Shown here in pieces: positions 35,518-60,602 of a stretch of 64,000 bases of DNA. This DNA comes from Mesorhizobium sp. NZP2298. GTDB lineage: Bacteria > Pseudomonadota > Alphaproteobacteria > Rhizobiales > Rhizobiaceae. Made by a program: the position numbers and the translations under genes. The notes beneath the pieces are model-generated. The model saw only the letters and a list, made by a program, of their open reading frames with translations. It had not been told where the DNA came from and searched no databases. Numbering within the stretch: position 1 is the first letter of the stretch; each line of letters opens with the position of its first letter. The stretch lies in the NCBI RefSeq assembly GCF_013170825.1, contig NZ_CP033365.1, positions 6,522,001 through 6,586,000 on the forward strand, written 5' to 3'.

Positions 35518-35572
35518 CAAGGGCGCCGCGACCAGGTTGGCGCCGCCACCAGCGGCGATTGGGGAGACGGGG

Positions 35573-37018
35573 ATGCAAAGGTTTTGGGTGAGGAAGGGGG
35601 CGGCCGCGTTGTCGGCTCTGGCTGCACTGTTGCTATCGAGCCTTGCGGCCGATGCGGCCGACCGCTTCATCGACGTGTCGAACCCCAGCGTCCATCGTAT
35701 TTTCCTGCCGATGTCGCAATCGGTGACTTTGCAGGTGAATGCCAATCTGGGCGATATCGTCGTTGGCGACGAGAAGATCGCCGATGCCCAACCGATGACC
35801 GACCGCACCCTCTATGTCATCGGCAAGGGCGCCGGCACCACCACGGTCAATCTGTTCTCCACCGACAAGCGTTCGCTCGGCGTCATCCAGATCGAGGTCG
35901 GCGTCGACGTCTCCGACATGGCGCAAGCCATCAGGCAGGTGGCGCCAAAGTCGCGCATCGAGATCGGCTCGGTCAACGGCAGGGTCAGGCTTGCCGGTCA
36001 TGTCAAGGACGGCGCCACGCTGGCGGCAATCATGGAAGTCGCGCAGCAATATGGTCCTGACGCCATCATCAACTCGGTCATCGTCGACGACAGCCAGCAG
36101 GTCAATCTGGAAGTGCGCGTGCTGGAAGCCAAGCGCAACTCCGGCCGCGACCTCGGAGTGTCGATCAAGAGCACGAACGGCAGCGGCACGACCAAAGTCG
36201 GAACGGGTATTGCCGCGGTCGATGAAAACAAGGCGGTGCTCGGCTCGGGAGCTCTGCTCAGCGACCTCCTGTCCACATCCACGCCCTTTGGAGCGCTGCT
36301 CACTCGCGTCATCGACAGCAATATAAAGGTCGACTTGTACATTGAGGCGCTCGAGGCCAAGGGCGCGGTGCGCACGCTTGCCAATCCCAATCTCACCACG
36401 CTTTCCGGCGAGCAGGCAAGCTTCAACGCCGGTGGTGAAGTCCCTATCCGAACTCTCGACAAGGATGGCCAGATCAGCATCGTGTACAAGCAATTCGGCG
36501 TTAATCTTCTGTTCACGCCGGTCGTACTCGACGATGGCAAGATCCACATGAACCTGGCGCCGGAAGTCAGCGACCTGAACGGCTTCACCACCGCCGGCGA
36601 CCCGATCTTCACCAACCGCAAACTGTCCACCGTCGTGGAATTGCGCGACGGCCAGAGCTTCGCGGTCGGCGGACTTTTGTCCAGCAAGACCACCAAGCTG
36701 CAGAACCAGGTGCCGTGGCTTGGCCAGGTCCCGGTCATCGGGACGCTGTTCCGCAATTCAAGCAGCCAGAAGGAAGAGACCGAACTGGTGGTCATCGTCA
36801 CGCCGCATATCGTGCGGCCGGTAAAACCCGGCGAGCAGTTGGCGACGCCATTCGACAAGACGCGGCCGGCCAACGATCCGGAATTCTTCGTCCTTGGTCA
36901 GCTCGAGGTGAACAAGGACATGATCCGAAAATATGAGACCGGCGACGGCGTCACCGGCCCCTATGGGCACATGCTCGACTTCAAATCGAAGGACAAGATG
37001 CTCTATGTCAAGAAATAG
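35573..37018 (+). CDS. cpaC: Flp pilus secretin CpaC (RcpA)
   Basis: The 481-residue outer-membrane secretin has a signal peptide (LAALLLSSLAADA-ADRFID), a pilus-specific N-terminal domain (QSVTLQVNANLGDIVVGDEKIADAQPM-type), a BON-like region and the C-terminal secretin domain. The latter ends WLGQVPVIGTLFRNSS and EETELVVIVTPHIVRP, the classic signature. The ATG at 35573 follows GGGGAGACGGGG and is preferred over 35495, which overlaps cpaB. Confidence 0.95.
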   Translation: MQRFWVRKGAAALSALAALLLSSLAADAADRFIDVSNPSVHRIFLPMSQSVTLQVNANLGDIVVGDEKIADAQPMTDRTLYVIGKGAGTTTVNLFSTDKRSLGVIQIEVGVDVSDMAQAIRQVAPKSRIEIGSVNGRVRLAGHVKDGATLAAIMEVAQQYGPDAIINSVIVDDSQQVNLEVRVLEAKRNSGRDLGVSIKSTNGSGTTKVGTGIAAVDENKAVLGSGALLSDLLSTSTPFGALLTRVIDSNIKVDLYIEALEAKGAVRTLANPNLTTLSGEQASFNAGGEVPIRTLDKDGQISIVYKQFGVNLLFTPVVLDDGKIHMNLAPEVSDLNGFTTAGDPIFTNRKLSTVVELRDGQSFAVGGLLSSKTTKLQNQVPWLGQVPVIGTLFRNSSSQKEETELVVIVTPHIVRPVKPGEQLATPFDKTRPANDPEFFVLGQLEVNKDMIRKYETGDGVTGPYGHMLDFKSKDKMLYVKK

Positions 37019-37301
37019 GATCTTGATCGCCATCCTGTGCGCCAGCGCATTGTCAGGCTGCGCCGCGGATTATCTGAATCACTACGATTCAGTGACTTTG
37101 GCGGCCGGCGACACGCAGAGATACAATTCGCTGCTGCAGACGGTCGATCCGTTCAATCCGGCGTCCAGGAATACACACATCGAAGGCGACGGTGCGCGCG
37201 CGGCCGCCGTGGCGCACAACTACAAATTTCCACCACCGCCGCCGCCACCACCGGCCATCACGGTCAATGTCGGCGGGGCGGGTGTGACTACAGGACAGTG
37301 A
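37005..37301 (+). CDS. small lipoprotein at the cpaD position
   Basis: This 98-residue protein has a lipoprotein signal (RILIAILCASALSGCAADYL, lipobox LSGC), a short region with HYDSVTLAAGDTQRYNSLLQTVDPFNPAS and a polyproline run before a Gly-rich end. Its ATG overlaps the cpaC stop by about 14 bases. In many Tad loci the larger lipoprotein CpaD follows cpaC, and the segment around VTLAAGD may be a relic of, or equivalent to, CpaD's N-terminal part. I cannot confirm homology. Confidence 0.75.
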   Translation: MSRNRILIAILCASALSGCAADYLNHYDSVTLAAGDTQRYNSLLQTVDPFNPASRNTHIEGDGARAAAVAHNYKFPPPPPPPPAITVNVGGAGVTTGQ

Positions 37302-37379
37302 ACAGAACAGAAGGACGCGGTTTCAGCGCGCCAGGCCATACGAGGGATCCTGGCGTCAGGGGAGCAAGGGGCAAGGGCC

Positions 37380-38861
37380 ATGCTGCGGACCATTCGCGCA
37401 TTCTGGCGCGACCAGAGGGGAATAGCGCTGATCCTCGTCAGCATTACGCTGCCGGCGATCATCGGCTTTTCGCTGCTGGCGATCGACATGAGCCGGGTGA
37501 ACAATCTGCACAATGATTTGCAGAAGGGCGCGGATGCGCTGGCATTGGCAGGCGCAGCCGAACTCGATGGGACGTCTGATGCCATCACAAGAGCGGACCG
37601 TGCGTTGGCAACGCTGGTGGCCAACAAATATACGTTCTCGACATCTGGGCCGCCGCAGACATTGGCCGCCGCCGGCGTGACGAGGCGCTACCTGAAGTCG
37701 TTGCCGACCTCAGACAATCTGCCGATTGCCGCAGCCAACGTCATCACCGATGAAGTTACCGACGCACCCCTCGCTCGCTACGTCGAGATCAAGGTAACGC
37801 CGGTCGGATTCGCCGCCATTTTCCCGGCGTCATATCTCACCGGCAATTCAGCCAGCAACGGGTTCAATGTAGGCGCCACCGCCGTCGCCGGCTTCACGTC
37901 AAGCGTTTGCGACTACACGCCGGTTTTCATGTGCAACCCATACGAAGACACAAGCATCACCGGCGGCGTGACGCTGGAGCAGGCGGCGCAAAGCAGACAA
38001 TATCGCCGTCGGCAAATCATCCTGCGCGGAGACGGATCCTACGCCCCTGGCAACTTCGCTTTCCTGTCTTCGCCGTTTGGCAACGGGGCCAACGAGCTCG
38101 AAAAGATGCTCGCGGACTCCAAGCCGCAGAATTGCTATTCGCGCGATGGCGTCAACACCGAGCCGGGGCAGAACGCCGGTCCCGTCGAGAACGGGATCAA
38201 CTCGCGGTTCGGCATCAACTCTTCCAGTTACTCGGACGGACCTGCGGTCAATGTGCGCAAAGGCGCCCAGAACTGGGACCAGTACGTCACGAGCAATAAG
38301 GTCAACTACGAAACGGATGCCACCAAGGGAGTCGGTCTTGAACGCGACTCGTGCCAGATCGCCGGCAACTGCACATTGATGGGCGGCCGCATGGGCGCCG
38401 GCGACTGGAATTTTGCGCGCTACTGGTCTGTCAACCATCCCGGCCGCGCGGTGCCAGCGGCTCTTTCGGGCACAGGCGCCGACCTGCCGACGCGATACGA
38501 AGTCTATCGCTACGAGATCGACCCTGACGGCAATCCTCTCACCAATGACAGCATTGTCGGCGACGCTGCCGTCGGCGGCGAAAAAGGCACCCCACCTGTA
38601 GCGGCAGGTACTCCGATCACCACCGTCGACCGCCGCCTGCTCTACGGCGCGATCCTGGACTGCAATGCGCTTCAGGCCAGCGGCGTGAATTTCAAGGGTC
38701 GAGCGACAGGTATTCCCGTCAGGCGCTTTGGCAGTTTCTTCGTTACCGAGCCGATCAAGGACGGCAAGAATATCTATGTCGAGCTGGTCGACATCACCGG
38801 CAAGGGCGGACGCGGGACACTCGACAATTTCCTGCGCGACGAAGCGCAGCTCTATCGGTGA
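37380..38861 (+). CDS. TadG-like Flp pilus protein
   Basis: The 493-residue protein has the TadE/TadG N-terminal anchor (FWRDQRGIALILVSITLPAIIGFSLLAIDMSRV) followed by ADALALAGAAELDG, typical of TadG. The periplasmic part is large and cysteine-containing (SVCDYTPVFMCNPYED; RDSCQIAGNCTLMGG). There is no clear von Willebrand MIDAS motif. It is a putative minor pilin-like assembly factor. The two TadE-like genes follow directly. Confidence 0.88.
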   Translation: MLRTIRAFWRDQRGIALILVSITLPAIIGFSLLAIDMSRVNNLHNDLQKGADALALAGAAELDGTSDAITRADRALATLVANKYTFSTSGPPQTLAAAGVTRRYLKSLPTSDNLPIAAANVITDEVTDAPLARYVEIKVTPVGFAAIFPASYLTGNSASNGFNVGATAVAGFTSSVCDYTPVFMCNPYEDTSITGGVTLEQAAQSRQYRRRQIILRGDGSYAPGNFAFLSSPFGNGANELEKMLADSKPQNCYSRDGVNTEPGQNAGPVENGINSRFGINSSSYSDGPAVNVRKGAQNWDQYVTSNKVNYETDATKGVGLERDSCQIAGNCTLMGGRMGAGDWNFARYWSVNHPGRAVPAALSGTGADLPTRYEVYRYEIDPDGNPLTNDSIVGDAAVGGEKGTPPVAAGTPITTVDRRLLYGAILDCNALQASGVNFKGRATGIPVRRFGSFFVTEPIKDGKNIYVELVDITGKGGRGTLDNFLRDEAQLYR

Positions 38862-38867
38862 CCGGCG

Positions 38868-39416
38868 ATGATCAAGATGATGCGCCACAGCCTCGACAGA
38901 TTTCGCCGTGACCAGCGCGGGGCCGTGCTTGTCGAGATGACGCTGATCGCGCCGCTGATGCTGATCCTGTCAGCGGGCGTGTTCGAATTCGGCAATCTGA
39001 TCCACGACAAGCTTTTGATGGAGGCCGGCCTCGACGATGCGGCTCGTTTTGGCGCTCGCTGCAACAGCCAGATGTACACCGACGTCGGTTGGTCGGCGAT
39101 CGACTGCGCCGATATCGCGACGAATATCGCGGTCTACGGCAAGGCCTCGTTGACCGTGGCAAATGGCGTGGTGACGGACAGCCCGCGCGTCAGCGGCTGG
39201 CAGAAAGCGAATGTGACCGTGACCATAGGCGCCAGCGGCTCCTGCCATGACGCTGTCGTTGCCGGCGTTACCCAATATCGATCGGTGACCCCGCAAGTGT
39301 GCATCGTCAGGGCGGCGGGAACCTATCCCTATAGTGGCGTCGGCATGCTGTCGCTTCTCAATATCGGCCCGATCACCTTGAGCGGCGCCCACGAGGAGCG
39401 GTTGATCCGGTTCTGA
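38868..39416 (+). CDS. TadE-like pseudopilin, first copy
   Basis: The 182-residue protein begins with a charged leader (RHSLDRFRRDQRG) and the TadE-like hydrophobic segment AVLVEMTLIAPLMLILSAGVFEFGN, with Glu at +5 after the presumed Gly-Ala cleavage site. The rest is a periplasmic domain with four cysteines. Pseudopilins of this type are processed by the Tad peptidase and support pilus biogenesis. It starts 6 bases after the tadG-like stop. Confidence 0.9.
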   Translation: MIKMMRHSLDRFRRDQRGAVLVEMTLIAPLMLILSAGVFEFGNLIHDKLLMEAGLDDAARFGARCNSQMYTDVGWSAIDCADIATNIAVYGKASLTVANGVVTDSPRVSGWQKANVTVTIGASGSCHDAVVAGVTQYRSVTPQVCIVRAAGTYPYSGVGMLSLLNIGPITLSGAHEERLIRF

Positions 39417-39418
39417 TC

Positions 39419-40057
39419 ATGATGAGGCGCTTCGCAAAATCAGAACTCGGCGCGGCAATGGTCGAAATGACCATCGTCGCGCCTTTGCTTTTTGCGCTCG
39501 TCCTCGGCTTCGTCGATTTCGGCTACGCCTTCTATCAATGGAACGCGGCGACAAAGGCGGTGCAGGTCGGCGCGCGGCTGGCGTCGATTTCCGACCCGGT
39601 TGTCAGCAATCTCACGGCCGCCGCTCCCATCGCGGTACCGGGCGCGCCAGTCGCGGCCGGCGCCTATGGTCCGTTTGTCTGCCAATACACCGGAACCACC
39701 GGTGCATGCAGCAATGGCGGCACATTCGATGCCGCCTCCTTCAGCCGCATCTTCCGCGGCGACACGGCAAACACGACCGATGACGTCTGTCCCGCGCCGG
39801 CAGCGAACCAGCGACCGGGAATGTGTCACTTCTTTCCGGGGCTACACCGCGACAACATCGTCGTCACCTACTCGGCTACCGGCCTCGGTTTCCAAACCCG
39901 TTTGGGTGGACCCGTGCCGACCATCACTGTCAACCTGCGGAACCTGACCTTCCAGTTCTTCTTCCTGAAAGGGCTGATGGGTTTCAACGACATCACCATG
40001 CCCTCCATGCTGAGCACGGTCACGGGCGAAGACCTGAAAACGAGCGCACCATCATGA
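39419..40057 (+). CDS. TadE-like pseudopilin, second copy
   Basis: This 212-residue TadE-family protein has the leader MMRRFAKSELG, then AAMVEMTIVAPLLFALVLGFVDFGYAFYQWNAATKAVQVGAR, again with the Gly-Ala site and Glu at +5. The periplasmic part contains several cysteines. It differs in the C-terminal half from the preceding TadE-like protein, so the pair are probably distinct minor components. Its stop overlaps the cpaE start (ATGA). Confidence 0.9.
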   Translation: MMRRFAKSELGAAMVEMTIVAPLLFALVLGFVDFGYAFYQWNAATKAVQVGARLASISDPVVSNLTAAAPIAVPGAPVAAGAYGPFVCQYTGTTGACSNGGTFDAASFSRIFRGDTANTTDDVCPAPAANQRPGMCHFFPGLHRDNIVVTYSATGLGFQTRLGGPVPTITVNLRNLTFQFFFLKGLMGFNDITMPSMLSTVTGEDLKTSAPS

Positions 40058-41217
40058 ATGCCATCAACACCAAGGTTACGCCGACCAAGCGAAAGCAGGT
40101 GGCGTTGTTTTCGTCCGATCCGGCTTTCAAGCGCGAGGTGGCGACGCGGCTCGATGCGCTGGCGATCTATGATGTCAGGATCTCCGAGACGGATGATTTT
40201 CTGAAAGGTCCGCCCGCCGATACGCGCCCAGGCATCGTCATCCTCGATCTCGGCAATGGCGGCCTGCTCGGCAGACCAGGCATTGTCGAGGCGCGCGCGC
40301 TGTGGGCGTCGGTGCCGCTGATCGCGGTTTCCGATGAGCTGACGTCGGAACAGACGCGCGTGCTGGTGCGCATGAACGCTTCGGACTGGCTGCACAAGCC
40401 GCTCGACGGCAAGGAACTGCTCAACGCGGTGACCTTCCATGATACCGGCAACCAGGGAACCAAAAGCCGCATCATCACCTTCATCAGCGCCAGCGGTGGC
40501 GCCGGTGCCACGACGCTCGCTTTGTCGGCCGCCGAATTCCTGGCCTCGAAATCGACGGAGCGCGCGGCTTCGACCTGCCTGGTCGATCTCGATTTCCAGA
40601 GCGCCAATTGCGGCGCCTACCTCAATCTGTTCAACCAGTTCGATCTGGCGGGCATCATCGGCCAGCCGGAAAGGCTCGATGTCGAGCTGATGGACGTCAT
40701 CAAGCTGTCGCGCCCGTCCGGTCTCACCCTCTACGCGTTCGAGAGGCCGCAGCTGCCGTTCGAGCCGCAAGGCAGCGATTTCGTCTTCCGGCTGCTCGAC
40801 CTCGTCGCCTACCGCTTCGACGACATCGTCATCGACCTGCCCAATCTCGAAACGCCGTGGCACAATTCGGTGCTTTCGACGAGCGACGAGATTTTCATCG
40901 TCTTCGAACTCAACGTCGCTTCGCTGCGGCAAGGCAAGCGGCTCTACAAGAAGATCCGCGAGTTGCGCGGCAATGCGGTCAGCATCACGCTCGTCGCCAA
41001 CAAGCACAAGCGCAAATGGTTCGGGAACCATTTTTCGCGCAGTGAGCTCGAGAAGATATTCAAGGCGCCGCACATCAAATCGGTGGCCCTGGACAACACC
41101 CTTCTGGCCGATGCCTTGAACCGGGCGATCCTGCCTTCCGAAGTGGATGGCCGGGCGCGCTTCAACAAGGATCTGAAGAAGATGTTCAAAGAGCGGCTCG
41201 ATGACGCCGCCCGGTAG
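40054..41217 (+). CDS. cpaE: Flp pilus localisation ATPase-like protein CpaE (TadZ)
   Basis: The 387-residue product has an N-terminal receiver-like domain (KQVALFSSDPAFKREVATRLDAL; GIVILDLGNGGLLG) and a C-terminal MinD/ParA-like ATPase domain (RIITFISASGGAGATTLALSAAEFL; STCLVDLDFQSANCGAYLNLF). The P-loop reads SGGAGATTLA, lacking the lysines of ParA's KGGxGKT, as is common in CpaE/TadZ. It positions the pilus machine at the pole. An earlier frame opening at 39823 lies in the tadE gene; the ATG at 40054 is correct. Confidence 0.93.
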   Translation: MNAINTKVTPTKRKQVALFSSDPAFKREVATRLDALAIYDVRISETDDFLKGPPADTRPGIVILDLGNGGLLGRPGIVEARALWASVPLIAVSDELTSEQTRVLVRMNASDWLHKPLDGKELLNAVTFHDTGNQGTKSRIITFISASGGAGATTLALSAAEFLASKSTERAASTCLVDLDFQSANCGAYLNLFNQFDLAGIIGQPERLDVELMDVIKLSRPSGLTLYAFERPQLPFEPQGSDFVFRLLDLVAYRFDDIVIDLPNLETPWHNSVLSTSDEIFIVFELNVASLRQGKRLYKKIRELRGNAVSITLVANKHKRKWFGNHFSRSELEKIFKAPHIKSVALDNTLLADALNRAILPSEVDGRARFNKDLKKMFKERLDDAAR

Positions 41218-41791
41218 ACATGACGCGGCTGCAAGGCTGATCGGCGCCTGCGTGCTCAGCCTGGCGCTTGCGCTGTCGGCCCAGGACGTCGCCCAGGCGC
41301 GATCGAGGCTTTCGGATCGGCCACCACTGCCGGCGATGGGCCCCAGCCTGCGCAAGGCGGTTGCTTTCGCAACCACGGAGCAGCCGGGAACGATCGTCAT
41401 CCGCAAGAACGAGAAGGCGCTTTACCTGGTGACCCGTCAGGGCCAGGCGCTGCGCTACCAGATCAGCGTCGGACGTGACGGATTCGGCTGGACCGGTGTC
41501 GTGAAGGTCGGCGCGAAAACGGAATGGCCGCAGTGGCGCCCGCCCAGGGAAATGCGCGCCCGCCAGCCGGACCTGCCGGAGCTGGTGCCTTCGGGCCCCT
41601 ACAACCCGCTCGGCGCACGGGCGCTTTATCTGCTTCGGGACGGGCACGACACGCTCTATCGCATCCATGGCACCAACGATCCCTCGGGCGTGGGGTTTGA
41701 CGGTACATCTGGGTGCTTCCGCCTTACCAACACGGATGTGATCGATCTTTTCAAGCGCGTGCCAATAGGCACCAAGGTGGTGGTTCAATGA
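41201..41791 (+). CDS. L,D-transpeptidase (YkuD family) in the Tad operon
   Basis: This 196-residue exported protein has a signal region (LIGACVLSLALALSAQDVAQA) and a YkuD domain with the catalytic motif YRIHGTNDPSGVGFDGTSGCFRLTNTDVIDLF, where His and Cys form the active site. L,D-transpeptidases cross-link or attach proteins to peptidoglycan in the periplasm. It overlaps the cpaE 3' end by 17 bases, and its stop overlaps the next start (ATGA), so it belongs to the Tad operon. It may help pass the pilus machine through the wall. Confidence 0.9.
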   Translation: MTPPGRHDAAARLIGACVLSLALALSAQDVAQARSRLSDRPPLPAMGPSLRKAVAFATTEQPGTIVIRKNEKALYLVTRQGQALRYQISVGRDGFGWTGVVKVGAKTEWPQWRPPREMRARQPDLPELVPSGPYNPLGARALYLLRDGHDTLYRIHGTNDPSGVGFDGTSGCFRLTNTDVIDLFKRVPIGTKVVVQ

Positions 41792-42363
41792 CGACGATCA
41801 GTGACCCGCACGTGCCGACCGTGGCCGCCGAGCCCATCGAACCGCAACTGCTCGACAGGGATGCGAGCCGGTCGCGGCTGGCCGTCGTGGTCGGTGTCGG
41901 ATTGACACTGTTTGCGGTGCTGAACGCGACCGCCGCCATCTACCTCTATCGCGGCATCTCCGACCTGCGCGTCGTGGAGGGACGTCTGGAGGAGCTCGGC
42001 GCGTTCGAGGAGCGGATCGTTGCCCGGCTCGACACGGTCAACAACGGTTTTCAAAGCCGATTTGAAAGGCTGGACAGCCAGTTGCAAGGCAGTTTCAACG
42101 AAGTCAACGGCAACCTGGCCCGGTTGGAACAAAGCCCTCCGTCAGCGCGCGACGACGGCAGCGCGGGCGCGGCGGAACCCGTCGTCGTCACCACCAGCAC
42201 CGTGGCGGACGCATCCTCCAACACCAGCGATATCGCGGCCGAACCCGCGGCTGATACGCCACGGCCACCCAAGCGCAAGAGCACCGCGCCCCCTGCCCCG
42301 AACCCCTCCTACCAGCGAACCGAAACGCCGGACGGCAAGGTCTATTATCGCAAGATCAATTGA
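41788..42363 (+). CDS. unassigned single-pass membrane protein ending the Tad operon
   Basis: I do not recognise a family. The 191-residue protein has a cytoplasmic N terminus, one membrane helix (LAVVVGVGLTLFAVLNATAAIYLYRG), a heptad-like coiled-coil segment (LRVVEGRLEELGAFEERIVARLDTVNNGFQSRFERL-type) and a Ser/Pro/Thr-rich tail ending PDGKVYYRKIN. Its ATG overlaps the L,D-transpeptidase stop, indicating coupling. It may be an accessory factor for the transpeptidase or pilus. Confidence 0.8.
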   Translation: MTTISDPHVPTVAAEPIEPQLLDRDASRSRLAVVVGVGLTLFAVLNATAAIYLYRGISDLRVVEGRLEELGAFEERIVARLDTVNNGFQSRFERLDSQLQGSFNEVNGNLARLEQSPPSARDDGSAGAAEPVVVTTSTVADASSNTSDIAAEPAADTPRPPKRKSTAPPAPNPSYQRTETPDGKVYYRKIN

Positions 42364-43417: not shown

Positions 43418-44866
43418 ATGAACACGACAAGCATGTCGACCATTGGCAGGCGCCTTGGTCTTTTGATGGCGGCTACGATGTTGACCTGCGGGAGTGCGAG
43501 TGCACTTACGCTCAAGGAAGCAGTGGCGGTTGCCGTCGAATCCAATCCCGAAATCGGCCAGGCCATAGAAAATCGCGAAGCAATCGAGTTCGAATTGCGT
43601 CAGGCCAAGGGGCTTTATCTTCCCAGCGTCGACCTGGAAGCGTCGGCTGGTGCTCGCCGTCTCGACAATTCCTCCCGACGCGTGCTCTCCATACAGGACG
43701 ACGCGCTTTATCCGGCCGAAACCGATCTGACGGTTTCGCAAACGCTCTATGACAGCGGCGCGAGACGGGCTGAACTGAACCGCCAGGCCTCGCGCGTCGA
43801 CGGCGCGTCGTTTCGTGTCCTGGAGCGTTCTGAATTCATCGGCCTCTCGGTTGTCCAGGACTACCTCGAATACATGCTTCAGGCCTCGATCGTTTCAGAG
43901 GCAAAGAAGAACCTCGGCTTTCATCAAGCAATGCTGCACGACATCCAGGAAGGCATTGCCGGCGGCGGGTTGAACGAAGCCGACCGGCAGCAGGCCGAAG
44001 AGCGGCTGTTCGCGGCCAAGGCCCGCATGCAGGAGGCCTCGGAGGAGCTCGAGGCCTCGAGGATACGCTTCTTCAAGACTGTCGGGAAACCGTTGACCAA
44101 TGCGTCGAGGCCGGCCGATGTTTCCGGCGCGCTGCCAAGGTCTCTCGACGATGCGATCGGCCTTGCGCGGGAGAGCAATCCGCGCGTCCATATGGCCAAC
44201 AGCGACATCGCCGCCGCAGCCTCGCTGGTCGACGCGGCCCGCGCGAAATACGGCCCCTCGATCGTCGCCGAAGGCGTCGCTCGGGCTGGGTATGACATCG
44301 ACGGCGACAATGGCGACACATCAGACCTGCAGGCACGCCTGGTGCTGCGATGGAACCTCTACCGGGGCGGCATCGACAAGGCCAACGAGCAGGAGCAGAT
44401 CCGCCGCACCAGCGAGCAGCGCCTTGCGATGCATCAGGTGCTGCGGGAAATCGAAGAAGCTGTTCGCACCTCCTGGGATCGCCGCTTCCGGCAAGCCGAC
44501 CTGGCAAAGACCCTGAAGCTGCAAGCCGCCTCCAACGAGAAGCTGGTTGCGTCCTATCGCGAGCAATTCAAGGTCGGGCAGCGCTCGTTGCTCGACGTGC
44601 TGGATGCACAGAACACGCGGTTCAACACGGCGACACTGGCGGACACCGCATCCTATGCCTCGCTCTTTGCCCAATATCGGCTTCTGGCGGCGACCGGGCA
44701 GTTGCTGAAAACGATGGACATCCACCCGCCAAAGCAGGCCGCGGCCTACGCACGGACCGAGTTCGCCGCACCGGAAACGGCCGACACGGAAACCTATGCG
44801 CGCACGCCGTCGGAACAGAAGAACGACCTGCCTTTCGATATCCTGGCGCCGGTCAGGAAAAAATAA
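43418..44866 (+). CDS. TolC-family outer-membrane channel of the adhesin secretion system
   Basis: The 482-residue outer-membrane efflux protein has a signal peptide (LLMAATMLTCGSASA-LTLKEAVAVAVESNPEI) and two OEP repeats. Family segments are GLYLPSVDLEASAG, VSQTLYDSGARRAELNRQ, LVLRWNLYRGGIDKANEQ and FKVGQRSLLDVLDAQN. It would form the outer-membrane duct for the downstream ABC/HlyD pair. The ABC transporter gene starts 40 bases later, so the three genes form a type I secretion operon. Confidence 0.95.
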   Translation: MNTTSMSTIGRRLGLLMAATMLTCGSASALTLKEAVAVAVESNPEIGQAIENREAIEFELRQAKGLYLPSVDLEASAGARRLDNSSRRVLSIQDDALYPAETDLTVSQTLYDSGARRAELNRQASRVDGASFRVLERSEFIGLSVVQDYLEYMLQASIVSEAKKNLGFHQAMLHDIQEGIAGGGLNEADRQQAEERLFAAKARMQEASEELEASRIRFFKTVGKPLTNASRPADVSGALPRSLDDAIGLARESNPRVHMANSDIAAAASLVDAARAKYGPSIVAEGVARAGYDIDGDNGDTSDLQARLVLRWNLYRGGIDKANEQEQIRRTSEQRLAMHQVLREIEEAVRTSWDRRFRQADLAKTLKLQAASNEKLVASYREQFKVGQRSLLDVLDAQNTRFNTATLADTASYASLFAQYRLLAATGQLLKTMDIHPPKQAAAYARTEFAAPETADTETYARTPSEQKNDLPFDILAPVRKK

Positions 44867-44906: not shown

Positions 44907-47039
44907 GTGAACCAGCAACCCAACATCCTCTCCCCGAAGGAGGCGTTCAAGTCCTGCTTCTCGGCCATTGCCGGGTATCTCGGCAGACCGAGCGCGCACA
45001 CGGTGCTGTTCGCCGGCGTGCCGCTGTCGGACACGCGCATCGACATCGATGCCATCCGGCATCTTGCCGAGCGCATCGGCCTTGAGATCACCGAATTCAG
45101 CCATCGTGACTTCCTTCGGGGGCGCATCGATCTTCCCGCCATCGTGTTTCGCGCCGGCCAATTGCCGGTTGCCCTGCTGGCCGAAACCGAGGACGGCGCG
45201 TTCACCACCGCTCCCCAGGAAGACGGCCGCGTAACCATCACCAGATCAGAGCTGGCCGCCACTTACATCAGTGGCGGCGTTTCCTTCTCGATAACCTATG
45301 CCAACGCCGCCGAAGGGATGAGCGTCGGTTCCGCGCCGAAGATCGAGCGGCGACACTGGCTGACGGGAACGATGGGCCCGTTCTGGCGCACTTATTCGAA
45401 GGTCATCCTGTCGGCAATATTCATCAACCTGCTGGCCATCGCCTCGCCGATCTTCACCATGAACGTCTACGACAGGATCCTGCCGAACAAGGCGATATCG
45501 ACGCTCTGGGTTCTGTCGATCGGCATCGCCGCGGTCATCCTGTTCGACCTGCTTTTGAAGACCGCCAGGGCGTCGCTCATCGACTATGCCGGGCGCAAGG
45601 CGGATCTGCGCATCTCATATATGCTGTTCGAGAAAGTGCTGAACTCATCCCTGTCGGCACGGCCGGGCTCGACGGGCGAATATGCAAATCGGGTGACGCA
45701 GTATGAGTTCGTGCGCGAATTCTTCACGTCGAACACCATCAGCGTTTTCATCGACACGGCCTTCGTGTTCGTCTTCCTCCTGGTCATCTATGCGATAGGC
45801 GGCTGGCTGGTCATCATACCGGCGCTGGCCTTCGTGGCTTCCGTGATCGTCGGACTGGTCACGCAGCGGAGCATTGGAAAACGCGTCGCGGCCTCCATGA
45901 ACGAGGCCTCGCAACGGCAGGCCCTGCTGGTGGAATCCATCTCCACGCTGGAGACGATCAAGTCGCTGCGGGCCGAGGCGTATCTGTTGCGAAAATGGGG
46001 AGAGCATTCCAAGAACGCGTCAAACACGTCCGAGAAGATCAAGCAGCTGTCGGCGGCGGCCGGCAATATAACGCAGGCCATCCAGCAGATGGTCACCGTC
46101 GCGCTGATCGTGGCCGGCGCCTACGCCTTTTCTGAAGGACACGTCTCTACCGGCGCCATCATCGGCACCGTGATGCTGGCCAGCAGGGCGGTGTCTCCCC
46201 TTGGCCAGATCGCCATCACCTTGTCCAGACTTCGCCAGGCCATGCTCTCCTTGCGCATGGTCAACTCGATCATGGAGCAGCCGGAGGATCGCCCGGACAC
46301 GGTGGGTTTCGTCAACCGGCCCATCCGCAACGGCGCCATGGTGTTCAGGAATGTCGGCTTTGTCTATCCGGGCTCCGAAAACGAAGTCCTGACCGGCCTG
46401 AATTTCTCGGTAAGGCCAGGCGAGCGGATTGGCATCATCGGCCGCATAGGCTCGGGAAAGACAACCATGGGTCGGCTGATCGGCAGGCTTTTCCTGCCGA
46501 CATCAGGCGAGTTGCTGCTGGACGGGATCGACATCCGCCAATATCACCCATCGGAGGTACGCGCCGCAGTCGGGATTGTCGCGCAAGCCAATGATCTGTT
46601 TTCGGGCACCATCAAGGAGAACCTTCTGATGGCTTGTCCGGAGGCGACCGACGAGCAGATTGTCGAAGCGGCCAAGGCTGCCGGCGTCGACGATTTCGTC
46701 TCCCGTCACCCGCGCGGCTACGACATGAATGTCGGCGAGCGCGGCACCAATCTCTCGGGCGGCCAGAGGCAGACGATGGCGATCGCCCGGCTGTTGCTGA
46801 CCAAACCCAAAATCGTCTTCCTGGACGAGCCGTCGGGATCGATGGACCTGGCTTCCGAGCGGCAACTGATCAAGCAGCTCAAAGTGGCTTTCGACCGGAA
46901 CACGACGCTGATCGTTTCGACGCACCGCTTCAGCATGCTCGAGCTGGCCGACCGTCTTATCGTCATCGAGCAAGGCAGGATCGTTGCCGACGGACCAAAG
47001 GACCAAGTGATACAGGCGCTGCAGAAAACAAACGCCTGA
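44907..47039 (+). CDS. type I secretion ABC transporter (LapB-like, with C39-like domain)
   Basis: The 710-residue permease-ATPase starts with GTG. Residues about 15-130 form a peptidase C39-like domain without the catalytic Cys (degenerate, as in RTX adhesin transporters). Six membrane helices follow, then the ATPase: Walker A IGRIGSGKTTMGRLIG, signature GTNLSGGQRQTMAIARLLL, Walker B KIVFLDEPSGSMD and H-loop VSTHRFSMLEL. It would export the large RTX adhesin at 50422. It lies between the TolC and HlyD-like genes. Confidence 0.95.
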   Translation: MNQQPNILSPKEAFKSCFSAIAGYLGRPSAHTVLFAGVPLSDTRIDIDAIRHLAERIGLEITEFSHRDFLRGRIDLPAIVFRAGQLPVALLAETEDGAFTTAPQEDGRVTITRSELAATYISGGVSFSITYANAAEGMSVGSAPKIERRHWLTGTMGPFWRTYSKVILSAIFINLLAIASPIFTMNVYDRILPNKAISTLWVLSIGIAAVILFDLLLKTARASLIDYAGRKADLRISYMLFEKVLNSSLSARPGSTGEYANRVTQYEFVREFFTSNTISVFIDTAFVFVFLLVIYAIGGWLVIIPALAFVASVIVGLVTQRSIGKRVAASMNEASQRQALLVESISTLETIKSLRAEAYLLRKWGEHSKNASNTSEKIKQLSAAAGNITQAIQQMVTVALIVAGAYAFSEGHVSTGAIIGTVMLASRAVSPLGQIAITLSRLRQAMLSLRMVNSIMEQPEDRPDTVGFVNRPIRNGAMVFRNVGFVYPGSENEVLTGLNFSVRPGERIGIIGRIGSGKTTMGRLIGRLFLPTSGELLLDGIDIRQYHPSEVRAAVGIVAQANDLFSGTIKENLLMACPEATDEQIVEAAKAAGVDDFVSRHPRGYDMNVGERGTNLSGGQRQTMAIARLLLTKPKIVFLDEPSGSMDLASERQLIKQLKVAFDRNTTLIVSTHRFSMLELADRLIVIEQGRIVADGPKDQVIQALQKTNA

Positions 47040-47064: not shown

Positions 47065-48375
47065 ATGCGTTGGGGTCATATTGACATGCTTGCAAGGGAA
47101 GACCGGCCGCCGCTCTTCGCGTCGGCGTCCTTATTGATCATAGGGGCACTGTTTGTGTCTTCTGTCGCCTGGGCGTCCTTTGCCGAGGTCGATGAGATCG
47201 CACGCGGCGAAGGCAAGGTCATACCGGCATCCAAAACCCAGATCATCCAGGCCAGCGAGCCGGGCGTCGTTCAGGAAATTGCCGTGAAGATCGGACAGAT
47301 CGTCAAGAAGAACGATCTCATCATTCGCCTCGATAACTCGCTCAACACGTCCAGCCTCGGCGAGCAACAGGCCAAGGCACGGGCACTTGAGACGCGCATT
47401 GCGCGGCTCAAGTTCGAACAGGGCGGCAATATCGAGGGCCAATTTCCCTGCCCTCCCGAAATCCAGAAGGTCGCTCCGGAAATCTGCGACAATGAGCAGA
47501 AGTTGCTCGTCGCGCGCCGTGACAATTTCCAGGTCAAGCTGTCCGTTCTCAAATCCCGGCTCGATCAGCGCGAGAATGAATTGGACGAAGCCAACGCCAA
47601 TCTCGATCGCCTCACCAAGAACCTCGAAGTCAGCGACCGGGAAACTGCGCTGGTCGAATCCATGGTCAAGAAGGGGCTGATGGCGAGGACCGAGCAGATC
47701 CGCGTCGAGCGCGAGCAGACCGAACTGCATGGGCAGCTGAACCTCGCCGGTGAAACCATCAAGAAGGCCAAGGCGGCCATCACCGAAGCCCAGCTTCAAG
47801 TCAACGAGCTCGGCCTGCAGTTGCAACAGGAGGCGCTGAGCGACCTGACGCAGGCGTTGGCCGACCTTTCGGTTGTCGATGAGACCATACGCGGAGCCAC
47901 CGACAAGGTAGCGCGCACGGACATACGCTCCCCTGTCGACGGGATCGTCAACACGCTTGATGTCAACACGCTTGGTGCCTTCGTGCAGCCCGGCGCGGTC
48001 GTGGCCGGCATCGTGCCGACTTCCGAGACGCTGCTGGTCGAAGCGCGGGTTTCACCACGAGATGTTGCCTTCATCCGGCCGGACCAGGACGCGCTGATCA
48101 AGATAACCGCTTATGATTTCTCGATCTTCGGCGGCATCGAGGGCAAGGTCTCCAACATCACCGCCGACAGCCTGGTCGACCAGAAGACGGGCGAGCCTTA
48201 CTACCAGGTGCGCGTGGCAACAGAGAGGTCGACGCTGACCCGGGATGGCAAGACCTATTCGATCATCCCCGGCATGATCTGTTCGGTCGACATCAAGACC
48301 GGACGCAAGACCATCCTCACCTATCTGCTGAAACCGATCAACAAGGCCCGAGAGGAGGCAATGAGTGAGCGATAG
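47065..48375 (+). CDS. HlyD-family type I secretion membrane-fusion protein (LapC-like)
   Basis: The 436-residue adaptor has an N-terminal anchor (LLIIGALFVSSVAWASFAEVDEIARGEGKVIPAS), a biotinyl/lipoyl-like strand (VQEIAVKIGQIVKKNDLI), a long coiled-coil hairpin (about residues 95-270) and a C-terminal beta domain (IRSPVDGIVNTLDVNTLGAFVQPG; VSPRDVAFIRPDQDALIKITAYDF). It bridges the ABC transporter and TolC in the periplasm. An ATG at 47086 is an alternative start. It overlaps the RHH gene. Confidence 0.95.
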   Translation: MRWGHIDMLAREDRPPLFASASLLIIGALFVSSVAWASFAEVDEIARGEGKVIPASKTQIIQASEPGVVQEIAVKIGQIVKKNDLIIRLDNSLNTSSLGEQQAKARALETRIARLKFEQGGNIEGQFPCPPEIQKVAPEICDNEQKLLVARRDNFQVKLSVLKSRLDQRENELDEANANLDRLTKNLEVSDRETALVESMVKKGLMARTEQIRVEREQTELHGQLNLAGETIKKAKAAITEAQLQVNELGLQLQQEALSDLTQALADLSVVDETIRGATDKVARTDIRSPVDGIVNTLDVNTLGAFVQPGAVVAGIVPTSETLLVEARVSPRDVAFIRPDQDALIKITAYDFSIFGGIEGKVSNITADSLVDQKTGEPYYQVRVATERSTLTRDGKTYSIIPGMICSVDIKTGRKTILTYLLKPINKAREEAMSER

Positions 48376-49153: not shown

Positions 49154-50098
49154 CTAAGGCTGCAGGCCCTCGCCGGGTGCGACCGTCGCAAGACCGCCCT
49201 TGATATCGGCGACTTGGGCCGCGCCGGCCCGGGCGCCGTGGATCCACGCGCGGTCGGTGCTGAACGAGTACAACGGCACGTAGTCGGGGAGATCGCTGTC
49301 GCGCGAGACAACGTTGCTCAGGCTGTCCAGGATGAACACACCGCTGCCCGTGCTGACAGACAGCACGGCATGAAAGAAGCCGCGCTTGCGGTCCTGGAGC
49401 ACAACGAGCGACATGCTCTGTGCCGGAATGCCGGCGCGCAACAGCGCCGCCATCTTGAGAATGGCGAAATCCTCGCAGTCACCTGCCCGCCGCTCGAGAA
49501 TTTCCGAAGGCTTCGCCCAGTAGTCGAGCTTGCCGTAAACCACGCTGTCCTTCTTGTAGGCGATCGCGTGGTTTATGCTTGAGTTGACGAAGGACAGCTT
49601 GTCGATGAACCGCTTGTCCCTGGCAACATCGACGATCGCGGTGAAGATGCTGTTCTTGCCGTTGCACGTGCTGCCCGTGGAACAGTCGACGATGGCCTTG
49701 TAGACCGGCGCCCAACGCGCGGAGACCGGGAAATTGTGCATGGACAGCGCAACCGATCCGAACACGCCGGGAATTATCGACGCCGTCTGGATGGGATCGA
49801 TCCCGACATTGCCCCGCGCTGTCGAGGAGCCGTCTTCCCCATCGATGGCGGCAGGCCCGTAGCTGCCGAAAACCGTGCCGATCCTGTAGGCCGAGGCGGG
49901 CTGCCAAGGCTGCGGCCGCAGCAGCGAAATACCACCGAGGGTGGGAGGCGTTTCGACCCTTGCCAGCAGCGAATCGACAGGACCGACGCTCCTCGGGAAC
50001 GCGCCTGCGGACGACGGCTGCGACAGGCCCGCGATTCCGATTGCCAGCAGCAGCGCCTTGAGCCCGATTCTCCCCAGGGCAGATTTTTCTTTTTTCAT
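49154..50098 (-). CDS. LapG-like periplasmic transglutaminase-type cysteine protease
   Basis: The 314-residue protein has a signal peptide (ALLLAIGIAGLSQPSSAGA) and the bacterial transglutaminase-like cysteine peptidase domain. The triad is readable as Cys in RRAGDCEDFAILKM, His in RGFFHAVLSVS and Asp in FILDSLSN. In Pseudomonas, LapG cleaves the N-terminal region of the LapA adhesin and releases it from the cell; LapD inhibits it when c-di-GMP is high. The ATG at 50098 follows AAAGGTGG. The gene is divergent from the RTX adhesin, its probable substrate. No lapD homologue is in the window. Confidence 0.92.
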   Translation of the reverse strand: MKKEKSALGRIGLKALLLAIGIAGLSQPSSAGAFPRSVGPVDSLLARVETPPTLGGISLLRPQPWQPASAYRIGTVFGSYGPAAIDGEDGSSTARGNVGIDPIQTASIIPGVFGSVALSMHNFPVSARWAPVYKAIVDCSTGSTCNGKNSIFTAIVDVARDKRFIDKLSFVNSSINHAIAYKKDSVVYGKLDYWAKPSEILERRAGDCEDFAILKMAALLRAGIPAQSMSLVVLQDRKRGFFHAVLSVSTGSGVFILDSLSNVVSRDSDLPDYVPLYSFSTDRAWIHGARAGAAQVADIKGGLATVAPGEGLQP

Positions 50099-50421
50099 AA
50101 CGCCCACCTTTGACTGTGGACGCTATCAATCCCGTCTCAAATTATTGCAAAGGAAGGTGGATAATTTTCCTGTACTTGATAATCTCCATTTTATTTAAAA
50201 TTTTATGCAAATTTATACTTACGCTCACCAAGCAGCTGGAGCCGACCCACGCCAGACGGATCGCATGCCAGCCAATGTATATCAGGTTATATGTTTCGAG
50301 TTTACCACGCGTAAAAAATACTGAAGCTCGCATATCCGAATATATGAAACAGATTGCAAGATAGTTGCAAAGTAGAAGGGGTCACTGTCTCTATCCGGGA
50401 AATGCCGGAGGGGTTTTGGCC
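50099..50421. promoter_or_regulatory. AT-rich divergent promoter region between lapG-like and adhesin genes
   Basis: This 323-base gap is strikingly AT-rich compared with the rest of the window and has no gene. TTGCAA occurs three times: at 50145-50150, 50354-50359 and 50365-50370. The last two are 11 bases apart, one helical turn, close to the adhesin start. A CATAT/ATATG inverted repeat lies at 50331-50346. CCGGAGGGG provides the adhesin ribosome site. A DNA-binding regulator is likely but unidentified. Confidence 0.55.
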
Positions 50422-57085: not shown

Positions 57086-57454
57086 ATGAAGCGTTGTGGA
57101 AGATTGCTGGCTACGGCCGCCGCGCTGCTGCTGGCTGGATCGACGGGCTTCGCCGCCGACATCATCGAGGGACCTGTAGGCGACTATTGCCGCACCGTCA
57201 GCACGTCCAACTTGGTGCTGACCGACAATATCGTCGATCTCAGGCAACAGGTGGTGAAGCTGATGGACGAGTCGGTCGCTGTCGCCAACAGTTCGGAATG
57301 GATCAATTCATCCCGGCCGGCATTCGTGTGGGCATCGGAAGCCAAGGTCGCCTGCGGCATGGCCTATGGCTATCTGAAGACGAACTACAAGGACGAAGAC
57401 ACACTCAACAAATGCGAGTGCTTCCACGATCGCATGGTCGAGTACATGCACTGA
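57086..57454 (+). CDS. small exported cysteine-containing protein
   Basis: The 122-residue product has a clear signal peptide (LLATAAALLLAGSTGFA-ADIIEG). The mature part is about 98 residues with four cysteines: one in VGDYCRTVSTSNL, one in KVACGMAYGYLKTNY and a pair in NKCECFHDRMVEYMH at the C terminus. GGAGAGGG precedes the ATG. It is likely periplasmic with disulfides. I do not recognise the family. It lies directly downstream of the adhesin but has its own promoter-like AT-rich sequence. Confidence 0.8.
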   Translation: MKRCGRLLATAAALLLAGSTGFAADIIEGPVGDYCRTVSTSNLVLTDNIVDLRQQVVKLMDESVAVANSSEWINSSRPAFVWASEAKVACGMAYGYLKTNYKDEDTLNKCECFHDRMVEYMH

Positions 57455-57786: not shown

Positions 57787-58977
57787 ATGGAAGCAGGCCG
57801 GCAGGTCCGCAACCCGCAGATTTTGGCGATCGCCCTGGCGCTCGCCACGATAGTGTCGGGCTGCCAGTCGAAAGGCGGCGTTTCCGACGTGCTCGATCAG
57901 GCCGCGGCTGCCGCGCCCGCCGGCCAGAATGCCGCCGGTCCGGCCCAGGCGAGCCAGTCGCTCGGCACCGGTTCGACCAAGGTCACGATGTTGCTGCCCT
58001 TGTCGGCGCCCGGGACGTCAGGAGAGACCGGCAGGAAGATGCGTGATGCCGCCAAGCTGGCGATGACCGATATCGGCAATGGATTGCTGACGTTGACGAT
58101 CGAGGACACCAAGGGCGACAGCGCACAGGCCAGCAAGCAGGCCGTGCAGGCCATGACGACGGGGTCGAAAGTGGTCATCGGTCCGACCGAACTGCCGGCG
58201 GCCCAGCATATTGCCACGCTGTCCGGATCGAAGCGGCCGCCGGTCCTGGCGCTTGCCGACAATTTCGCGGGCGGCGCTGGGGTTTACGCCGTGCGCCTCA
58301 GCGAAGCCGACAGCGCCGCGGCGGGCGCAGCAGGGCTCGCCGCGAAAGGCCGCAAGAAGTTCGTATTGCTGGTCGCCGAAGGCTCAAACGCCGGCGCCGT
58401 GGAGAAGCGGGTGGCGAACAGCCTTAGCATCTATGGCGCAACACTCGCGGTCACCCTGCCTTATTCGGCCGGCGACGGTGGCGCGAAGGCGATCGACCAG
58501 ATGGGCTCGCTCGTGGACGCTCCCGACGCGGTCATCGTTGCCAGCGGCGACGGCAGCCCCTCACCCGTCCTTGCCGCTCTCAAATCAAAGGGCATTCCGG
58601 GAAAGGCAATCTCTATCGTGGGGACGGACCGCTGGCTGGAACATCCCATGGATCCGTTGTTCGAGGGGGCATACATCGCCACGCTCGATCCAAGCGAAAC
58701 CGGACCGATCGCCGACCGTTTCAGGACGACATACAATTATCCGGCCGACGTCAATGCGGCCTATGCCTATGATATGATTGCCCTGACAGCTGGGATAGCG
58801 AGCGCGGTCGGACCTGACGGCTTCAGCAAACAGACTCTCGAAAACCCGAACGGGTTTCGCGGATCGACAGGTTTGTTCCGTTTTCGCGCTGACGGATCCA
58901 GCCAAAGATCGATGCCATTCTATCGGATAGAAAAGGGTGTGCTCAAACTGGTTGCCAAATCGACGTCGGGTTTCTGA
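57787..58977 (+). CDS. penicillin-binding-protein activator-like lipoprotein (LpoA/type I periplasmic binding fold)
   Basis: The 396-residue protein has a lipoprotein signal (IALALATIVSGCQSKGG, lipobox VSGC) and a type I periplasmic-binding-like domain: VTMLLPLSAPGTSGETGRKMRDAAKLAMTD, KVVIGPTELPAAQHIATL and YDMIALTAGIASAVG. In alphaproteobacteria this family is annotated as penicillin-binding-protein activator, related to LpoA's C-terminal domain and to amino-acid-binding proteins. It should be an outer-membrane or periplasmic lipoprotein affecting peptidoglycan synthesis; ligand binding cannot be excluded. Confidence 0.82.
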   Translation: MEAGRQVRNPQILAIALALATIVSGCQSKGGVSDVLDQAAAAAPAGQNAAGPAQASQSLGTGSTKVTMLLPLSAPGTSGETGRKMRDAAKLAMTDIGNGLLTLTIEDTKGDSAQASKQAVQAMTTGSKVVIGPTELPAAQHIATLSGSKRPPVLALADNFAGGAGVYAVRLSEADSAAAGAAGLAAKGRKKFVLLVAEGSNAGAVEKRVANSLSIYGATLAVTLPYSAGDGGAKAIDQMGSLVDAPDAVIVASGDGSPSPVLAALKSKGIPGKAISIVGTDRWLEHPMDPLFEGAYIATLDPSETGPIADRFRTTYNYPADVNAAYAYDMIALTAGIASAVGPDGFSKQTLENPNGFRGSTGLFRFRADGSSQRSMPFYRIEKGVLKLVAKSTSGF

Positions 58978-58995: not shown

Positions 58996-59724
58996 TTGCT
59001 CGAATGCCGCGATGGCCTGATGGGCACGCCTCGGCATGCCCGCCTGATGATCGCGGTCGGGGGCCTTGAACTGCTGGTCGGAATTGTCCTGATCATGCGC
59101 GCCGGAGCCCTGCTTTCCCTCGAGCGGCCCGCCCCTGCGCCGTCGCTGGAAAATTCCGGCAAGCAAGCGGCCCCGGTGGATACAGCCATTTTCGACGGAT
59201 CAAGACGAGAACCGGCACGGCGGATTGCCGAGAGCCTTATCGCCCCGCCGCCGGTTGACGCCTCGGAAATCGAGCGGGTCGAAGCCCGGCCGCCGCTCGG
59301 TGAACTCGGCCTCGCCGTCCGCCCCAGGACGCCAATGCCGCAAGACTGGCGCGAAACCCTGCTGTACCATCCAATTGCAACGTCGTCGGCGACTTTCGAA
59401 TCGATGGGGCGGAAGGTGGTCATCAGCGGGGCTCTGGACATCGACGAGGCCCAGACCTGCTCGTTTCGCGACGAAGCCTGGCCCTGTGGGCTGCGCGCCC
59501 GCGCGGCCTTCAATGCCTGGCTGCGGGGGCGCGCGCTGACCTGCTTTCTGCCGCCGGAAACCGAACGCTTTGCCATCGCCGCGCCGTGCCGGCTGGGCAA
59601 GCAGGATGTCGGCGCCTGGCTCGTCGCCAATGGTTGGGCCATGGCGTTGCCGGGCGGCATCTATGGCAAGGCGGAAGCAATTGCCAGGGATGCCGAGATG
59701 GGTATCTTCGGGCCGCCGCGATAG
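58996..59724 (+). CDS. membrane-anchored SNase-like protein
   Basis: The 242-residue protein has one N-terminal membrane helix (LMIAVGGLELLVGIVLIMRAGALL), a Pro-rich linker and a C-terminal region resembling the staphylococcal-nuclease-like fold (GALDIDEAQTCSFRDE, WPCGLRARAAFNAWLRGRAL, APCRLGKQDVGAWLVANGWAMA). Catalytic Arg/Glu residues of true thermonucleases are not convincingly present, so nuclease activity is doubtful; rhizobial relatives such as ExoI occur in polysaccharide loci. The frame opens with TTG at 58996; ATG 59020 is an alternative. Confidence 0.7.
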   Translation: MLECRDGLMGTPRHARLMIAVGGLELLVGIVLIMRAGALLSLERPAPAPSLENSGKQAAPVDTAIFDGSRREPARRIAESLIAPPPVDASEIERVEARPPLGELGLAVRPRTPMPQDWRETLLYHPIATSSATFESMGRKVVISGALDIDEAQTCSFRDEAWPCGLRARAAFNAWLRGRALTCFLPPETERFAIAAPCRLGKQDVGAWLVANGWAMALPGGIYGKAEAIARDAEMGIFGPPR

Positions 59725-59849: not shown

Positions 59850-60602
59850 ATGACGAGACCAATGGCGACCACCACTGCCCAGGACTGGAAGCGCGTCGCG
59901 TGGTTGACGTTCCTGGGAACCGCCGGGAGCCTCGGCCTTTCCCTTGGACTGAACTACCTGCTCCTGTTCAGCGACACGCTGACGCCGTTCGCCCGCAGCA
60001 TGATCACCGCGGGACTGCTGCCGGTGATCATAGGCCTGCCGCTTTTCGCGCTGATCGGCTGGAACCGGGTCGAAATCCACCGCTACCGGCAGGAACTCAA
60101 CAAGTCCGGAACGTATGACAGGCTGACGGGCTGCCTGAACGGGCCGGTCTTCACGTCGATGATTGAACGACGGGCCGCCAGGCGATCGGGACCAGGACCA
60201 CGCTCGGGCGCCTTCCTGATCATTCATCCGGAACACCTTCGATCCATCAACATGCGCTTTGGGCTCGAATGGGGCGACGAGGCCTTGCGGCTCATCGTCT
60301 CGACCATACAGTCGTCGGTACGCGAGGGGGATCTGGTCGGACGCATCGGGGCCTCGATGTTTGGGGTTTTCCTCCCGGGCGCGACCGAAGCAGAGGCCAA
60401 GGAAGTCGGCGAACGTATCCGGACGCGTGTCGCGCAGGTCTATTTCGCGCCAAAAGGCACCGAGGATGTCCTCACCATAAAGGTCGGCGGTGTGATGTTG
60501 GAGAACGAGATGGAGTTCTCGGACATGTTCCGGTCCGCCGAACAACACCTGTCCGACACGCAGGATGACGCCGGGTTCGAACTGACGCATCTGCACAGCT
60601 GA
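59850..60602 (+). CDS. membrane GGDEF-domain protein with degenerate active site and intact I-site motif
   Basis: The 250-residue protein has two N-terminal membrane helices (about residues 18-36 and 48-66) and a cytosolic GGDEF-type domain from about residue 85 (YDRLTGCLNGPVF; HLRSINMRFGLEWGDEALRLI). The catalytic GGDEF motif is replaced by GASMF in VGRIGASMFGVFLPG, so diguanylate cyclase activity is not expected. The inhibitory-site motif RxxD is kept as REGD, exactly five residues before. Such proteins can be c-di-GMP receptors. GGAG precedes the ATG at 59850; a longer frame from 59586 overlaps the SNase-like gene. Confidence 0.88.
   Translation: MTRPMATTTAQDWKRVAWLTFLGTAGSLGLSLGLNYLLLFSDTLTPFARSMITAGLLPVIIGLPLFALIGWNRVEIHRYRQELNKSGTYDRLTGCLNGPVFTSMIERRAARRSGPGPRSGAFLIIHPEHLRSINMRFGLEWGDEALRLIVSTIQSSVREGDLVGRIGASMFGVFLPGATEAEAKEVGERIRTRVAQVYFAPKGTEDVLTIKVGGVMLENEMEFSDMFRSAEQHLSDTQDDAGFELTHLHS

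Follow-up and report, generated by a model that had tools for sequence, protein, structure and literature searches.

The locus described here raises the question of how a large adhesin, its type I secretion system and a LapG-like protease could respond to c-di-GMP in a genome in which no canonical LapD is found. In the known system LapD holds LapG through the GWxQ loop of a periplasmic LapD/MoxY domain, and c-di-GMP is bound by its inactive EAL domain (PMC4359373, PMC13090378). In the window, that is the whole stretch of 64,000 nucleotides of Mesorhizobium DNA that was analysed, the LapG relative and the adhesin lie 3-11 kb upstream of a gene for a small membrane protein with a degenerate GGDEF domain, which we consider here as the candidate receptor.

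Results

The locus and the architecture of the GGDEF protein

The features of the locus are collected in Table 1. The Cys-His-Asp triad of the LapG relative aligns with that of the solved LapG-type proteases 4fgo and 4u65, and the NCBI LapG model gives 87.8 bits, below its cut-off of 320, so that the protein is LapG-like rather than a certified LapG; it is likely to be the protease that cuts the adhesin, whose N-terminus is conserved. The ribbon-helix-helix protein may be a regulator of the locus. No Pfam or NCBIfam family was matched by the SNase-like protein. Between 52065 and 53855 the adhesin gene contains near-identical head-to-tail repeats of 750 bases, the antisense ORFs at 52065, 52815 and 53565 being identical; these repeats may explain the assembly breaks of relatives at this locus. 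Tad/Flp pilus genes (secretin, TadE, Tad and CpaE-like) are found upstream of the adhesin locus at 35495-42363.

Table 1. Positions in the window, strand and supporting evidence of the adhesin, secretion and LapG genes and of the GGDEF gene with its parts.
Positions	Strand	Feature	Evidence
43418..44866	+	TolC-type outer membrane protein	PF02321; TIGR01844 214.4 bits, just below cut-off 225.15
44907..47039	+	Type I secretion permease/ATPase, LssB type	TIGR03375 784.6 bits, above cut-off
47065..48375	+	HlyD-type adaptor of type I secretion	TIGR01843 352.8 bits
48365..49006	+	Ribbon-helix-helix protein with further C-terminal part	PF13467 57.9 bits; in 16/17 LapG-linked family stretches
49154..50107	-	LapG-like periplasmic cysteine protease (BTLCP)	Peptidase_C93 78.1 bits
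50422..56922	+	Large repeat adhesin with RTX repeats, 2166 aa	T1SS-143, tandem-95, RTX repeats, T1SS C-terminal target domain
57086..57454	+	Small protein of unknown family, signal-peptide-like start by eye	No family match
57787..58977	+	Periplasmic binding-protein-like protein, lipoprotein by eye	PF01094 32.6 bits, cut-off 25.4
58996..59724	+	SNase-like protein, N-terminal hydrophobic segment	Directly upstream of GGDEF gene; SNase-like C-terminal half by eye
59850..60602	+	Two-helix membrane protein, degenerate GGDEF domain, presumably catalytically dead	Pfam, translation, AlphaFold2 model, PDB matches
59889..59966	+	First membrane helix, residues about 14-39	AlphaFold2 helix 10-39; hydrophobic stretch in translation
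59985..60065	+	Second membrane helix, residues about 46-72, running on as stalk into GGDEF domain	AlphaFold2 helix 46-88
60321..60332	+	RxxD inhibitory-site motif REGD, residues 158-161 (R158, D161)	RxxD in 101/101, 121/121, 40/40 and 11/11 rows (partly overlapping sets)
60348..60362	+	Degenerate active-site motif GASMF, residues 167-171, replacing GG[DE]EF	Sequence; GG[DE]EF in 0/101 genus-set rows

The GGDEF gene begins with the ATG at 59850, with AGGAG on its 5' side, and ends with the stop at 60602, encoding 250 amino acids. The only Pfam match of the product is GGDEF (80.1 bits against a cut-off of 23.8, residues 88-236). An AlphaFold2 model (21-row alignment, mean pLDDT 76.5) shows helices 10-39 and 46-88 connected by a very short loop and followed by the GGDEF fold, and cyclases are the top PDB matches of this model. 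The initial annotation had claimed two membrane helices and the absence of a large periplasmic domain that could hold LapG, and the predicted structure agrees on both points; since no more than about 6-10 residues connect the helices, the protein would be unable to hold LapG as LapD does. Its further claim, that GASMF stands where GGDEF is expected and REGD exactly five residues before it (LVGRI in between), is confirmed by translation of the ORF.

Compared with the published motif of active cyclases, D-x7-N-x8-D-x21-R-x-[GSA]G[DE]EF (PMC8546604), the protein has His126 in place of the first Asp and the wrong letters, GASMF, at the GGDEF position; N134, D143 and R165 of the motif are retained. 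The departure is shared by the whole genus set, made of the window's own row and 100 of the 104 other homologues, in which the letters at that position are GTSMF in 52 rows, GASMF in 23, GNSMF in 10 and others in the rest, GG[DE]EF occurring in none of the 101. Likewise, GG[DE]EF was seen in none of the 121 rows formed by the best 120 of 261 database proteins and the window's own. R158 and D161, in contrast to the active site, are present in all 101 genus rows, and RxxD in all 121 database rows, the two sets sharing species and thus overlapping in part.

Search for LapD

The initial annotation had placed the protein near an adhesin/LapG system lacking LapD, and searching the genome indeed yielded no canonical LapD. 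The domain PF16448 (LapD_MoxY_N) had no match in the own genome and a single one in the 146 genomes of the genus (G031:C30:24498-24650), and that genome had neither the LapG relative nor the GGDEF gene at the thresholds applied. The same domain was matched in 43 of 297 genomes of the order, some of which may be MoxY-like rather than LapD; these matches are the sole positive control of the search, 14 control genomes having given none. When the 16 EAL proteins of the genome were compared with the LapD model, 14 reached 94.7-174 of the required 1020 bits and two were unmatched at 1e-20, seven of the sixteen being read with a cut 5' end (1.5 kb flank). The protein L150, in which about 170 amino acids separate two membrane helices, was rejected as LapD on account of its intact GGDEF and EAL letters and the absence of GWxQ.

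Nor does the GGDEF protein resemble LapD in its domains. PF16448 and EAL are not matched, the chain ends after the GGDEF domain, the NCBI LapD model gives 28.8 of 1020 bits, and GWxQ is absent from the window's protein. GWxQ does occur in 38 of the 101 genus rows; where it was located (L064, L110) it falls on residue 70, where helix 2 is predicted to end on the cytosolic side and from which it could not meet LapG in the usual topology, and we take it as a coincidence, probably due to chance. Some Mesorhizobium DDxP-protein loci are stated to carry 'BTLCP- and LapD-like genes' (PMC7730722), and the word GGDEF is absent from the main text of that paper. The 'LapD-like' gene could be either the GGDEF gene described here or a true LapD, the latter counting against a LapD-less locus.

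Relatives in other genera and the loss of catalysis

In a scan of 394 genomes of the family, a GGDEF match at 1e-38 was found in 57 and LapG in 65. LapG-bearing genomes outside the genus number 57, and in 18 of them a GGDEF match at this threshold lies within 20 kb of LapG; a profile search of the other 39, and of the five genomes of the genus that have LapG and no GGDEF match, added at least 10 outside the genus, giving at least 28 of 57, and 29 have no linked member among the matches listed. Eleven of the members found by profile, including that of G063 in the genus, were read; all have RxxD and none has GG[DE]EF, GPASF being found in eight. Of 40 family loci that were fetched (L216 among these being from the genus), all have RxxD and 25 have GG[DE]EF, so that the intact relatives keep the I-site as well. 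LapG is in the same stretch in 17 of the 40, seven with intact GGEEF and ten without. TolC, ABC, HlyD and the ribbon-helix-helix gene were each seen in 16 of these 17 stretches, the adhesin N-terminus in 11, the SNase-like gene in six, the binding-protein-like gene in three and CpaE in none.

Since seven of the 17 LapG-linked relatives retain GGEEF, the tie of the family to the adhesin locus probably predates the loss of catalysis, and by the same observation a role at the locus need not be reception. Proteins with intact GGEEF at LapG/secretion loci of other genera (L191, L192, L193, L197, L198, L199 and L201) share the two-helix layout and the I-site with the window's protein, from which they differ in the active site; these members apparently provide local synthesis of c-di-GMP at the adhesin exporter.

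A tree built by a quick method from 57 selected rows, of which 41 are degenerate and 16 intact and from which the eleven profile-found members were left out, requires three changes between active and degenerate by parsimony, and its well-supported branches force at least two. We read these changes as losses of catalysis, gain and loss not being separable by the tree alone. The degenerate rows fall into one old clade of 38 that includes the window's protein, the pair L209/L216 (SGNQF, SGDQF) and the single protein L196, placed among intact GGEEF proteins of LapG loci. In deeper members of the family the active site is better preserved, one of the forms being GPSEF in combination with the first Asp, and these are read as stages of a stepwise erosion. 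L196 (9746-10528) has GGKEF and a retained I-site among intact locus-linked relatives, and is possibly a case of recent loss.

The intact relatives that occupy comparable loci in other genera, and two paralogues in the window's own genome that share the two-helix layout and the I-site and have an intact GGEEF (L002, 34% identity; L003, 42%), lend themselves to another explanation, in which the degenerate protein heterodimerises with related two-helix cyclases and tunes local c-di-GMP by its I-site, a different receptor serving the adhesin. We consider this unlikely, because the paralogues sit elsewhere in the genome and a further receptor would be required.

Co-occurrence and linkage with LapG within the genus

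Counts within the genus refer to a set of 146 genomes, in which the named close relatives are Mesorhizobium species. A homologue of the GGDEF protein (E of 1e-40 or better) is present in 105 of these, the window's genome included, with one per genome, and a LapG relative (1e-20) in 110. Both are found in 105 genomes, LapG only in five, neither in 36 and the GGDEF gene only in none (Fisher p about 4e-29, a value that ignores kinship and counts species rather than independent events). The co-occurrence with the adhesin/LapG locus in related genomes, on which the initial annotation had made its proposal depend, is therefore strong. In one of the five LapG-only genomes, G063, the profile search found a member 7.6 kb from LapG; for the LapG-bearing G010, G027, G042 and G066 there was no linked member among the matches listed.

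The two genes are on one contig in 60 of the 106 genus genomes with both and within 30 kb of each other in 59 of these 60, the sixtieth pair (G051) being about 26 kb apart only if its contig is circular. In the remaining 46 genomes they are split between contigs, which allows no judgement on linkage except in G120; there the two look truly apart, with no part of the locus around the GGDEF gene. Gene order varies: in some loci the GGDEF gene is next to TolC, in others it lies about 1 kb away from LapG, and in others again it stands at the adhesin's far end. Just upstream of it, 49 of 100 genus loci have the order of the window (binding-protein-like, SNase-like, GGDEF), 45 have the end of a Tad cluster and six have neither, namely two short stretches, L139 and L140-L142. 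In the last three (GETEF, 42-44% identical) the GGDEF gene stands beside the TolC gene of the same secretion system.

These arrangements bear on the possibility that the protein senses c-di-GMP on behalf of a different co-travelling output, either the Tad pilus or its SNase-like neighbour. In 96 of the 100 loci the SNase-like gene immediately precedes the GGDEF gene, and in the 45 with a Tad-cluster end this end stands immediately before the SNase-GGDEF pair, separating the pair from the adhesin part. The CpaE-like gene at 39823-41217 was taken as a Tad-pilus control: 98 of the 146 genomes have both CpaE and the GGDEF gene, seven only the GGDEF gene, seven only CpaE and 34 neither. However, LapG is present in all seven genomes with the GGDEF gene and without CpaE and absent from all seven with the opposite pattern, so that in 14 of 14 discordant genomes the GGDEF gene follows LapG, and CpaE is more than 100 kb from the GGDEF gene on the same contig in at least seven genomes. 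The Tad pilus was accordingly rejected as the partner of the GGDEF protein. In the family, the SNase-like gene was not seen in 11 of the 17 LapG-linked stretches and CpaE in none of them, against the 16 in which TolC, ABC and HlyD were seen. An output other than the adhesin is thus quite improbable.

Conservation of the I-site in degenerate relatives

The residues kept after the loss of the active site were examined in 28 degenerate rows, formed by the window's protein, 16 others from alignment A1 and the eleven profile-found members; LapG is on the same contig in 27 of these, whereas L110 shows the gene order of the genus but carries LapG on a separate contig. Thirteen positions do not vary, among these R158, D161 and R189, which remain invariant in 11 representatives less than 60% identical. 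R165 of the published active-site motif does not vary either. The metal, base-contacting and GGDEF positions are variable. The claim of an intact I-site beside a degenerate active site is in this way upheld by the sequences of the degenerate relatives. We take R189 to be the equivalent of the secondary-site Arg of PleD; on that assumption the sequence features of an I-site receptor, a degenerate GGDEF fold, RxxD five residues upstream of the motif and the secondary Arg, are all found in the protein.

RxxD is not required for the fold, since it is absent from eight of 15 other GGDEF domains of the genome (picked by eye from a motif scan), all eight from EAL-bearing loci. As the 25 intact family members also keep it, the motif is ancestral in the subfamily and its retention alone is no proof of a receptor role; its survival where product inhibition can have no purpose speaks for a receptor. 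Alternatively, the protein could sense GTP or another nucleotide through the remains of its active site, RxxD being a structural leftover. Within the genus set N134 is kept in 97 and D143 in 98 of 101 rows, as such a sensor would have it, and R165 is invariant. Nevertheless, across the 28 degenerate rows N134 is kept in only 15 and D143 in 13, against 28 for each of R158, D161 and R189, and the metal-binding Asp and Glu have mostly given way to other residues, which makes a nucleotide sensor very unlikely.

That the gene is decaying and functionless, as the destroyed active site might suggest, can practically be dismissed in view of its purifying selection (dN/dS median 0.11 and maximum 0.175 over 55 pairs from 11 sequences more than 85% identical, which also argues against a chance ORF), its homologues in 105 of 146 genomes and the many invariant residues in helices and domain.

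Discussion

The protein has a degenerate active site, a strictly conserved I-site and a physical and evolutionary tie to the adhesin locus. From these sequence data we hold, with moderate confidence, that it is an inner-membrane c-di-GMP receptor derived from a former cyclase, which kept the I-site and serves the adhesin/type I secretion/LapG locus where no LapD is recognisable. The proposal of the initial annotation, that the protein reads c-di-GMP for the adhesin system by a route other than LapD, is supported in part: co-occurrence, the failure to find LapD and the invariance of the I-site speak for it, and the reading of c-di-GMP itself keeps the rank of a candidate function.

In the mechanism that we propose, the I-sites of a GGDEF dimer would bind c-di-GMP, and binding would fix the two GGDEF domains of the dimer, changing the stalk and the membrane helices. 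A membrane neighbour might read this change, the likeliest being the ABC and HlyD components of the secretion system, an assignment of low confidence, and export or retention of the adhesin would then follow the level of c-di-GMP. The inner-membrane secretion complex is favoured as target because, across the different gene orders, the GGDEF gene is accompanied most constantly by the secretion genes, the periplasmic neighbours seen in the window being inconstant. Tentatively, one may picture a pseudo-cyclase that has no periplasmic domain and relays the c-di-GMP level within the membrane, either to the type I secretion complex itself or to some periplasmic partner encoded at the locus, with the fate of the adhesin set at the exporter instead of by the holding of LapG, and with resident cyclases having turned into receptors two or three times.

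Degenerate GGDEF domains with an intact RxxD as receptor site are established in PelD, PopA and CdgG, c-di-GMP receptors which the GGDEF protein resembles in both features; their outputs and accessory domains are different. With LapD the protein shares the location in the inner membrane, an inactive GGDEF domain and the association with a LapG protease, type I secretion and a large adhesin, and differs from it in having neither a periplasmic domain nor EAL and in keeping the I-site. That an unrelated architecture can replace LapD at a LapG-type locus is illustrated by DvhD of Desulfovibrio, a functional LapD analogue of dCache-PAS-HD-GYP architecture with a large periplasmic domain, by whose dCache domain its authors propose that the protease is reached (PMC13090378). 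The GGDEF protein, unlike DvhD, has no large periplasmic domain and therefore, if the same output is controlled, another route than that of LapD or DvhD would have to be used. We found no title or abstract describing a two-helix degenerate GGDEF protein at LapG-type loci.

The locus thus appears to represent a form of c-di-GMP control over LapG-type adhesins that does without LapD and has not been described before. In the papers listed by our literature searches we found no description of how such LapD-less loci are controlled in root-nodule bacteria and their relatives, for which attachment to roots matters, and the GGDEF protein now provides a named candidate regulator with three key residues, R158, D161 and R189. 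Furthermore, the species that carry intact, GGKEF and long-degenerate versions of the protein at one kind of locus offer a natural experiment on an enzyme that is perhaps becoming a receptor.
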